64,000 nt of DNA, from NCBI GenBank assembly GCA_024684455.1, contig JAIKWU010000021.1:1-64000 (forward strand), read 5' to 3'. Position numbers and translations under genes: made by a program. Under the pieces are notes generated by a model. That model was not told the origin of the DNA and did not search any database. It was given only the letters and a program-made list of their open reading frames with translations. This DNA comes from Bacteroidaceae bacterium. GTDB lineage: Bacteria > Bacteroidota > Bacteroidia > Bacteroidales > Bacteroidaceae. How positions within the stretch are numbered: position 1 is the first letter of the stretch; each line of letters opens with the position of its first letter. Below, in pieces: positions 41,573 through 44,655 of the stretch.

Positions 41573-42733
41573 TTATCGGTTACCTTTTGCTCTGTTGTGC
41601 GTCTTGCAGAGCATCTGGCAATTTTCTATGCTCGTAGCACCGCCCTTGCTCCATGCCGACACGTGGTCAGCATCCATTTCTGCGAGTTTCCACATCTTCT
41701 TACGGTTCGCTTCGTGTCCCATCGCACAGAGCGGACAATTGCTCACGTCGTGAAGGGCTGCTTCGGCTGTCTGACGCTGATAGACCTTGCGCTTCGTTGC
41801 CTCGTCGAAGATGCGGATGTCGAGCAGACGTTTGTCTGTGCAGCCGCCCAACACATACTCAAAGATGCCTTTGCGGTTCTTCACGTAAGGGTCGGCATAG
41901 AGGTCGTGAACCTGCTTGGCCACCGTTTCAGCATTGTAAGGCTGCGTGTGGTATGTCTCGTACAGCCTGCCCCACTCCAAGCCGCGCATCTCACTCTCGA
42001 CATCCGTGAAGACAGAGGCTATCCAGTCGATGACGGTGTTGAAGTAGCGTTTCAGTTCGTCGATGGTTGTGTCGTGACGATGCAGGCTCATGTAGCCTTT
42101 CACGTCGTCGCGGCTCACCCACTGCAAGGCACGTTCGAGGTAATCCTGGCGATTGACCGCTCCTGTGATGTAGGCACTCCATTTTTGCACATTGGCATTC
42201 TGTGAATTGCTGAATTCCTGCTTGGCCAGCGTGACGAACTCACCGCTATAGACGGCATTGAGCAGTTCCTGATGGTTGAGTGGCACACCAGCAATGTTGA
42301 CGGTCTCAAACCATTTGCGGATTTCGTCTTCCGTACCCTCGCACTCATAGACGAGCAGCGGCGTTTCGAGAATGCGCTGACGCTGTTCGGGCGACAGGCT
42401 TGAAAAGTACTGTGGAATGCCATTGCCGTCGATGATGGAGAGTTTGCCTGTCACAAAACGCCCCAACGACGTGATGCGCTGTTGTCCGTCCAGCACCTCG
42501 AAACGGTCGCCGTCGGTTTTGTTGAAGTAAAAGACACCCAGCGGATACCGATGTAAAGCCGACTGCACGACCGCCACATCCTTCTTGCCGTCGGCATAGA
42601 TGTAGTTTCGCTGATACTCCGGCTGAATGGTCAGACGGCCCGAAAGGCCATACAAGCCTTTGCCTTCCAGTTCGTTATAGACAAAGCCGTCACAGACTTC
42701 GCCCACGGTGTAAGTCTTGAGTGTTGTTTCCAT
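41573..42733 (-). CDS. DUF262 + HNH endonuclease domain protein
   Basis: N-term EYQRNYIY...FEVLDGQQRITSL; C-term CPLCAMGHEANRKKMWKLAEMDADHVSAWSKGGATSIENCQMLCKTHNRAKGN. Confidence 0.92.
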   Translation of the reverse strand: METTLKTYTVGEVCDGFVYNELEGKGLYGLSGRLTIQPEYQRNYIYADGKKDVAVVQSALHRYPLGVFYFNKTDGDRFEVLDGQQRITSLGRFVTGKLSIIDGNGIPQYFSSLSPEQRQRILETPLLVYECEGTEDEIRKWFETVNIAGVPLNHQELLNAVYSGEFVTLAKQEFSNSQNANVQKWSAYITGAVNRQDYLERALQWVSRDDVKGYMSLHRHDTTIDELKRYFNTVIDWIASVFTDVESEMRGLEWGRLYETYHTQPYNAETVAKQVHDLYADPYVKNRKGIFEYVLGGCTDKRLLDIRIFDEATKRKVYQRQTAEAALHDVSNCPLCAMGHEANRKKMWKLAEMDADHVSAWSKGGATSIENCQMLCKTHNRAKGNR

Positions 42734-43821
42734 TATGATTGTTTTTTACGGATTAGGATACGTGCATAAGTAGGTTTACCATTGATAGCCCCATCTTTAT
42801 CTTTTATCAATCCATGTGGCTTAACAGGTACTGAATTATTTTTACGATAGTCATTTGCATTTAATATCTCAAACTGTTCGGGACAATACTTGTCAAGGAA
42901 AGATATAGGTACACCCATTGCTCCATCATAGTCGCTGGGAATAGCATCGGTGTAAGGAACCTCGATGGCATCGTAGTTATCATAATGGTCGTAGGCAGGC
43001 TTGCCCTTTATTTCCTTGTGCTTGCTGTACTTCAAGTTATCCTCCATCGTCATTAGTTGCAGAGGCTGGTGACGACGACCGTGGTCAAGGTTTGTAAGCC
43101 AACAACAATTCCTAAACTTTACCAATCCAGTGCTTTCATCATATACTCCATTTGCATAATTCGCTTCACCAATGATTCGAAAGAAAGCATTTCCGCTTTG
43201 GAAACCATTACCCAACCACGCCTTATTCTTTTTAATAAGTGGGAAGATTTCTTTATAACACAATGCATTCATGCTCCCAATCACAAGAAACTTTTTATTA
43301 GCGTCAACCATCCACGCCATAAACTCCCTGAACAGCGAGAACGGCGGATTGGTGACGATGATGTCTGCCTCATCGCGTAATAGCGTTACCTCGTGGCTGC
43401 GGAAGTCGCCGTCGCCATCGAGATATTGCCATTCGAGGTCGTCGATGTTGATGCGTCCGTCGCCCGTGGTGTCGCGGTCGAGCACGAAGATTTTGCCGTG
43501 CGTCGAGGTTTTTTCGGGGTCAAATTGCGGGGCTTCGGTCTCAAAAAGGGAGAGTTGAATGGGACCTTTGTACTTCTTGCTCTCGTAGGCATAACTCGTG
43601 CTGATGAGTTTGCGGAGTCCCAGCCGCTCGAAGTTCTGAGCGAAATAGCGTGTAAAATTGCTCCACTCGGGGTCGTCGCAGGGAAGGAGCACCGTCTTTC
43701 CCTTGAATACATCGGGGTCATACTCCAGGTATGCCTCCACCTCACGCTCGATGTCGTGATACTGCGTGTAGAACTCGTCGTTCTTCGCTTCCTTTGCTTT
43801 GGATAAAGTTTCGTTAGCCAT
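42733..43821 (-). CDS. EcoRI-family adenine-specific DNA methyltransferase
   Basis: NDEFYTQYHDIEREVEAYL...VLLPCDDPEWSNFTRYF...DIIVTNPPFSLFREFMAWM (NPPF motif IV). Confidence 0.92.
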   Translation of the reverse strand: MANETLSKAKEAKNDEFYTQYHDIEREVEAYLEYDPDVFKGKTVLLPCDDPEWSNFTRYFAQNFERLGLRKLISTSYAYESKKYKGPIQLSLFETEAPQFDPEKTSTHGKIFVLDRDTTGDGRINIDDLEWQYLDGDGDFRSHEVTLLRDEADIIVTNPPFSLFREFMAWMVDANKKFLVIGSMNALCYKEIFPLIKKNKAWLGNGFQSGNAFFRIIGEANYANGVYDESTGLVKFRNCCWLTNLDHGRRHQPLQLMTMEDNLKYSKHKEIKGKPAYDHYDNYDAIEVPYTDAIPSDYDGAMGVPISFLDKYCPEQFEILNANDYRKNNSVPVKPHGLIKDKDGAINGKPTYARILIRKKQS

Positions 43822-43825
43822 AGCG

Positions 43826-43861
43826 ATTGATAGTTAAAACAGTTACGCATCAACTATCAAT
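43826..43861. promoter_or_regulatory. 10-bp perfect dyad at the methyltransferase start codon (possible operator or RBS hairpin)
   Basis: ATTGATAGTT (43826-43835) and AACTATCAAT (43852-43861), flanked by GCG/CCGC. Confidence 0.6.
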
Positions 43862-43904
43862 CCGCTGAAACGCTCAAAAAGAAAAAGCGTGATGCCTTTC
43901 TTAT

Positions 43905-44093
43905 CGCGTTTAGCACGAGGCGGCGTCGGAATGGAGCCTCGGAATTGTCATAAGAATACATCACGCTGGCAAGCGTGAAGCATTTGCATAAATGACAATA
44001 ACGGGAGGCCAGTCCTACGACAGCCGCCGTCACTATGAAGATTTCGTGCTTGTTATACCATTGAAGAGTTTCCGACGCTCTTGGCTAAACGCG
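43905..44093 (-). ncRNA. Rod-like nested structured RNA in the 5' leader of the methyltransferase-nuclease operon
   Basis: Nested helices CGCGTTTAGC/GCTAAACGCG, AGCACGA/TCGTGCT, GGCGGCGTCG/CGAC-A-GCCGCC, GCCTC/GAGGC, ATTGTCAT/ATGACAAT, TCACGCT-GGCA-AGCGTGA, plus side hairpin AAGAG/CTCTT. Confidence 0.65.
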
Positions 44094-44169
44094 AATTCAT
44101 AGCGAATGCTTATTAAAATATGTCTGGTCGTTCGGTTCTGACAATTTATGTCTTCACCGAAACCAAAGG

Positions 44170-44200
44170 CAAAGGTACGAATTATTTGTCAATTACAAAA
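44170..44200 (-). promoter_or_regulatory. Bacteroidetes-type promoter reading into the methyltransferase leader
   Basis: Minus strand TTTTG-N18-TACCTTTG. Confidence 0.6.
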
Positions 44201-44306
44201 TTGTCCGTACAAAAAAATTGAAGTCTTGCCATCCGCAGAACGCAGTCAAAACAAATGGACAGCACAGTATAAATTGACTGATGGCGAAGTTCATACTTAG
44301 TCATAC

Positions 44307-44417
44307 CGCAGTTCAAACTCAAAATTTAACTTAAATTTATGGAAATTCAACTTAAATTTCCGCAAATTTAACTTAAATTTGTATAAACATAACTTAAATT
44401 TTGAGTTTTATCTGCGG
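44307..44417. repeat. 21-bp x4 AACTTAAATTT array bounded by terminal inverted repeats
   Basis: AACTTAAATTT at 44328, 44349, 44370, 44391 (exactly 21 bp apart); AAACTCAAAATTTAA 44315-44329 vs TTAAATTTTGAGTTT 44394-44408; outer CCGCAG/CTGCGG. Confidence 0.9.
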
Positions 44418-44530
44418 AGCAACAAAGTATGATGTTCTGTGAGACTGATTTTCAAGCGAAGAACGATGGAATTAAAAGCACACCGCCATTGCACTTTGTA
44501 TGTACAATGGCGGTGTGTAGGATGGTGGAA

Positions 44531-44655
44531 AACTCCTCACCTGAAAGGGGAGGTGGCGCGAAGCGACGGAGGGGTCACAAACTTAATATCCGATGCGTTA
44601 AAGGAAGGTGACCCCTCCGCCCCGTTGGGGCACCTCCCCTTTCCGAGGAGGAGTT
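44531..44655. repeat. MITE-like inverted-repeat element
   Basis: Left AACTCCTCACCTGAAAGGGGAGGTGGCGCGAAGCGACGGAGGGGTCAC vs right arm reverse complement AACTCCTCCTCGGAAAGGGGAGGTGCCCCAACGGGGCGGAGGGGTCAC. Confidence 0.8.

Follow-up and report, generated by a model that had tools for sequence, protein, structure and literature searches.

The region at 43822–44178 on the minus strand of the window, i.e., the whole 64,000-nucleotide stretch of DNA under analysis, is probably a cis-acting RNA leader, belonging to no named class, that switches restriction-modification operons in Bacteroidales. The RNA family, its pseudoknotted structure, both of its mutually exclusive pairings, its association with genes, and its position directly ahead of the operon were established computationally. 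The RNA meets the criterion for a cis-regulatory leader, as it lies at a constant place immediately ahead of the coding sequence and has a covarying structure.

The expression of restriction-modification systems is usually viewed as being set by promoters, C proteins, or antisense RNA. If the proposed reading is true, one elaborate RNA fold serves as a shared defense control layer over unrelated restriction-modification operons within one bacterial order and gives a direct handle on how cells tune restriction against self-damage.

Leader, promoter, and operon

The leader comprises 357 nt between a Bacteroidetes-type promoter and the ATG of a methyltransferase gene (leader and operon features are all on the minus strand). 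Its folding energy is −124.9 kcal/mol, compared with −89.8 ± 5.6 kcal/mol for dinucleotide shuffles (n = 100), corresponding to a z-score of −6.28; none of the 100 shuffles folded as well. The strong folding claimed in the original prediction is thus borne out, and its sequence, its promoter hexamers, and the majority of its helices were found at the stated positions. The likely promoter consists of the −7 box TACCTTTG (44170–44177), of the Bacteroidetes type TAnnTTTG, and TTTTG at 44196–44200. A TAnnTTTG box was found within 120 nt upstream of 164 elements versus 13 of 163 control stretches. The hairpin TTCGGT...ACCGAA (44131–44161) belongs to a variable 5′ extension ahead of the conserved RNA. 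The 5′ extension of the homologues (L054–L277), ~70 nt upstream of the RNA, comes in two forms, a GAGAAAnCC hairpin in 83 and an ACATATT-type stretch in 57. These are almost mutually exclusive, occurring together in only 1 of 191. The conserved structured RNA, which defines the homologous family, extends from AGCATTCGC to the start codon (43822–44110). It precedes a 362-residue EcoRI-type adenine DNA methyltransferase (42733–43821; PF13651, E = 9.9e-128), downstream of which lies a GmrSD_N (DUF262)-HNH nuclease (41573–42733) assigned by PADLOC as a type II restriction enzyme.

There is no evidence that the leader encodes a peptide: no ATG within it opens a frame of conserved length, and the inner ATGs lead to frames of differing length. 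Likewise, the leader bears no sign of a degraded gene or a transposon end. A search of the whole window with Rfam 15 at the gathering cut-off detected only tmRNA and a tRNA, both outside the leader; at permissive E-values up to 5, nothing overlapped the leader at locus L001, and 15 homologous loci yielded a single tRNA. The original prediction had assigned the leader to no named RNA class and proposed an Rfam comparison, in which no family indeed matched it. A literature search found no description of this leader.

Three features lie further upstream. A+T-rich direct repeats AAATTTAACTTAAATTT with 21 bp spacing, which also form a long imperfect inverted repeat, occupy 44286–44437, upstream of the leader promoter. 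A strong G+C hairpin, CACACCGCCATTGCAC/GTACAATGGCGGTGTG (44479–44517), is probably a terminator. Finally, a MITE-like inverted repeat (44531–44655), whose 48-nt arms are 81% complementary around 29 nt, is located between the leader operon and the neighboring transporter gene.

Conserved helices and pseudoknots

Covariation was evaluated on an alignment of 67 leaders by an R-scape-like test, using the G statistic with APC correction and a null of our own implementation in which the substitutions of each column are placed at random on the tree. The leader alignments are sequence-based (MAFFT) and weak in the variable middle. Three single pairs scored above all null values: 24–197 in helix C, and 35–183 and 37–181 in helix B′. 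At the level of whole helices and under the same null, A, C, B′, G, D, X:Y, and P:Y were supported, with p values of 0.001–0.016 for pairing and 0.001–0.013 for covariation. These helices held in 60 further leaders that had not been used to derive the fold and were less than 93% identical to the first set and among themselves. The original prediction had named covariation among homologous leaders as a check, and this covariation was found. Helices C, B′, and G are nested, and A and D cross them; the RNA is thus pseudoknotted.

Helix C is formed by CGCGTTTAGC (44084–44093) and GCTAAACGCG (43905–43914). It contains the covarying pair 24–197 (helix p = 0.001), and covariation confirms it as originally drawn. 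The 5′ strand of helix A (44093–44102) finds its partner within CGAAATCTTCATAG (44033–44046) and crosses C, B′, and G as a pseudoknot. In the window leader, helix A includes a GAATTC site (44093–44098), which is absent from the aligned homologues and is probably a coincidence. Hairpin CCAAGAGCGTCGGAAACTCTTCAATGG (44058–44084) holds in its loop the 5′ strand of B′, GCGTCGGA (44071–44078), whose partner is TCCGACGC (43923–43930); 99.6% of cells are paired in this helix, which contains the covarying pairs 35–183 and 37–181. Helix D joins GAGGC (43936–43940) to GCCTC (43917–43921), with 95% of cells paired over the 67 leaders. The nearly invariant start of the RNA, S5 (GCATTCGC; 44102–44109), can pair with TGCAAATGC (43980–43988), a pairing that scores above the null with little covariation. 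In S, comprising the invariant start and the P region, and in hairpin H, pairing is kept with hardly any covariation.

The core fold first proposed must be redrawn with pseudoknots: its X:Y competition stands, and some of its core helices do not. The pairings AGCACGA/TCGTGCT, GGCGGCGTCG/CGACAGCCGCC, and GCCTC (44005–44009)/GAGGC (43936–43940) are not conserved, only 53–64% of cells being paired, and the homologues use B′ (44071–44078/43923–43930) and D (43936–43940/43917–43921) in their place. For the lower stem ATTGTCAT/ATGACAAT, the only support comes from duplex energies of own versus permuted partners; its pairs lie in a gappy stretch and are not retained column by column (53%).

Distribution and downstream genes

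The RNA family, ~270–290 nt in length, occurs in Bacteroidales of the gut and rumen, and 193 distinct copies were collected. Of 150 relatives searched at the DNA level, 16 genomes had matches, which lay ahead of EcoRI-type methyltransferases but also of other genes. Fifteen leaders were aligned to build a covariance model on the 5′ 85 positions. This model matched 93 of 399 genomes of the window's family, Bacteroidaceae, in 16 of its 30 genera, and 18 of 344 genomes of the order, belonging to several families. The model is specific, since in a draw of 296 genomes from the phylum the sole matching genome was the window's own. A pattern scan of named genomes recovered at least 118 stretches. Among the matches listed (80 titles), all are Bacteroidales or higher-rank Bacteroidetes records, with many metagenome-assembled genomes from the rumen or other parts of the ruminant tract and a few isolates; many of the genomes considered here are metagenome assemblies. 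Cultured carriers include Prevotellamassilia timonensis An873 (L205), Marseilla massiliensis An824 (L160), and Prevotella sp. P2-180 (L184). The window's genome contains three copies, ahead of three different operons. Another EcoRI-type methyltransferase of this genome (L279, G000:C59) has no detectable leader. Plasmid and phage records searched for the RNA gave no matches. Spread via phages or plasmids was considered and rejected on this basis, the pattern matches in viral contigs having likewise scored only weakly, at chance level.

A first gene lies in range of 162 of the 193 copies, the median distance from the RNA start to the start of this gene being 275 nt. In 114 of these 162 operons, the gene encodes an EcoRI-type methyltransferase, and 26 more carry a different DNA methyltransferase in first or second position or, at L103, an EcoRI-type enzyme in second position. 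The kinds represented in the 26 are C5, N6/N4, MmeI, type IIG, Eco57I beside an SNF2/PLD helicase, and D12, along with unnamed large N6-type families recognized by motifs only. Altogether, 140 operons (86%) have a DNA methyltransferase of one of several non-homologous kinds among the first two genes. A protein family of 769–776 residues with N6-methyltransferase motifs (DRCAGTG, NPPF/Y) was noted at L069, L080, L092, L093, L105, and L139; the L069 and L093 proteins had no match in Pfam, PADLOC, or NCBIfam, and that of L069 had none in the PDB. The remaining operons include HSDR_N proteins, a DEAD-box-like helicase, membrane acyltransferases, and a DEDDh exonuclease resembling a candidate defense family, and a few of their first genes are short or doubtful frames. 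Gene classes are based on profile matches and motifs. Conversely, among the top 30 PF13651 loci in the window's family, 21 have the RNA at the right place upstream, several of these matches being weak but well-placed. The originally proposed link to an EcoRI-type methyltransferase/DUF262-HNH operon therefore holds at this locus, but the leader is not specific to such operons, being common to many unrelated restriction-modification operons.

Leaders ahead of non-homologous genes are up to 89% identical, which indicates that the leader is a module exchanged between operons. At L161, the opening codons of an EcoRI-type methyltransferase, still attached to their leader, continue without a break into an acyltransferase-like frame, an arrangement that looks like a swap of the gene beneath the leader. 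Near-identical leaders ahead of different genes, like the junction at L161, would also suit an element acting at the DNA level, such as an operator or an anchor for recombination or gene swapping. This explanation is very improbable, since long-range compensatory base-pair changes and crossing helices are not expected of a DNA site, and modular exchange is also possible for an RNA leader. The large, knotted, and strongly conserved fold could instead be that of a trans-acting RNA or a part of the defense machinery, comparable to a guide RNA or the AbiF-associated RNA, that is merely co-transcribed with the operon; the RNA upstream of abiF is known to work in cis and by protein binding (PMC12373285). 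However, the downstream proteins are unrelated, so that no common protein partner is encoded nearby, and the position of the RNA is closely tied to the start codon. A trans-acting role is thus unlikely, though less so than a DNA element, and a leader acting in cis remains the preferred reading.

Competing pairings and the proposed switch

The apical hairpin of the original prediction is kept in homologues. It is formed by strand P (AATGCTTCACGCT; 43972–43984) as the 5′ arm and strand Y (AGCGTGATGTATT; 43955–43967) as the 3′ arm; P:Y is significant in both leader sets and is the minimum-energy nested pairing in all 67 leaders. Strand Y is also complementary to strand X (GGCATCACGCT; 43886–43896), the rival of P. 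This competing pairing, originally noticed as CATCACGCT:AGCGTGATG, proved to be conserved, with 97% of cells kept over the 67 leaders (p = 0.001 for pairing and 0.002 for covariation), and the result was repeated on the 60 independent leaders. The mean energy of the X:Y duplex is −17.7 kcal/mol with own partners versus −15.2 kcal/mol with permuted ones, a difference reached in none of 2000 permutations. In nested folding, which excludes pseudoknots, X:Y is ~10 kcal/mol worse than P:Y, and its formation hence needs a pseudoknot or a trigger. X:Y may also be a fixed tertiary contact rather than a switch state. A U-rich tract, TTTTTCTTTTT (43876–43886), directly follows X and is a possible termination site; at least five T in the eight bases after X were found in 98 of the 105 leaders in which X was identified. 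A terminator built on X:Y would be unusual in that it encloses a long loop. An X:Z hairpin downstream of the U-rich tract and a weak short local hairpin around X were both rejected for lack of covariation.

Hairpin H, GATTGATAGTT...AACTATCAATC (43825–43862), ends 3 nt ahead of the ATG. The hairpin is found in 134 leaders, with a median distance of 4 nt from its end to the ATG. Start regions of leader genes have a mean energy of −17.6 kcal/mol, compared with −9.2 kcal/mol for other ORFs, although these controls include some spurious frames. The invariant GCAT at the 5′ end could also pair with the RTGC loop of H, but this pairing is not claimed: own partners were no better than permuted ones, and a single double change (L106) is suggestive. 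The conserved pairing of H, its closeness to the ATG in the 134 leaders, and the low energies of the start regions would all fit control by translation only, where the knotted core, with X:Y as a tertiary part, decides whether H opens over the start region and no termination occurs. Such a mechanism would not need the U-rich tract, which is kept after X in 98 of 105 leaders, and H covaries so little that its sequence may matter for another reason. Translation-only control is accordingly a possibility of some weight, yet a doubtful one.

In the preferred reading of a cis-regulatory switch, the operon mRNA would begin with the leader, which would have a promoter of its own. The knotted core (C, B′, G, D, and the crossing A) would make strand Y available to either of two competing partners. 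By default, in the local fold, Y would be paired with P in the apical hairpin; in the alternative state, it would be paired with X, immediately followed by the U-rich tract. The exchange from P:Y to X:Y is inferred to set the output of the operon, most likely by premature termination at the U-rich tract, possibly jointly with hairpin H over the start region. Whether termination or translation is controlled remains undecided. The conserved exclusive pairings, located beside a plausible expression platform (the U-rich tract and the start-region hairpin), satisfy a structural criterion for a riboswitch or attenuator, any change in termination or translation on ligand binding being hypothetical. 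Cis-regulation itself, the direction of the switch, termination, and a host-wide cue are likewise inferences, as there are no transcript, termination-product, or expression data. The cis-regulatory, attenuator-like reading of the original prediction is thus the best-supported one, given the covariation, the absence of an Rfam match, and the lack of a degraded gene or transposon end, but attenuation, i.e., a short terminated transcript, has not been demonstrated.

The unrelatedness of the encoded proteins makes autoregulation by a product unlikely. Since these proteins share no family, the cue is inferred to be host-wide rather than one of the encoded proteins; no ligand or protein partner is known. 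Tentatively, one leader module may have spread ahead of many unrelated defense operons as a common switch, acting as a general sensor of a cue relevant to restriction-modification and surface-defense genes, e.g., phage infection or the S-adenosylmethionine/homocysteine level limiting self-methylation. A cue linked to SAM or SAH is worth considering because 86% of the operons include a methyltransferase, although operons without one exist and there is no evidence of ligand binding. A host-wide cue, suggested by the lack of any shared downstream protein, could be sought, and the structure is defined well enough for SHAPE, reporter, and ligand tests.

Several known systems resemble this leader in part. 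Like riboswitches and attenuators that exchange a terminator for an anti-terminator, it has a strand, Y, with two conserved exclusive partners and a U-rich tract ahead of the gene; unlike them, it has no known aptamer (no Rfam match) or ligand, and it precedes restriction-modification rather than metabolic genes. Type II restriction-modification is controlled by C proteins and antisense RNAs, proteins or transcripts that are each specific to one system. These share with the present RNA the role of a dedicated control layer for restriction-modification expression, whereas the present RNA is one fold common to many systems. The Weinberg-type candidate structured RNAs of Bacteroidetes are bioinformatically defined motifs, and the leader is likewise a conserved RNA motif of Bacteroidales defined by bioinformatics; however, no motif in Rfam 15 matches it. 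To our knowledge, control of restriction-modification genes by a structured cis-regulatory leader has not been described. Among described cases, the AbiF RNA motif (RF03085)/RCd22 comes closest, being likewise a structured RNA within the 5′ portion of a defense-gene transcript. In Clostridioides difficile, the RCd22 leader of abiF is reported to reduce expression of this gene through premature termination in cis and also to bind the protein (PMC12373285). The AbiF RNA is short and tied to one protein family, which it also binds, whereas the present RNA is ~290 nt long, pseudoknotted, unmatched by RF03085, and located ahead of many unrelated genes. Indeed, RF03085 had no match in the window or the 15 homologous loci, and no Abi_2 protein was found among 20 downstream proteins scanned. 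Collectively, on this evidence, the present RNA, which belongs to no named family, is assigned to a new class of structured cis-regulatory leader and works like a riboswitch or an attenuator.
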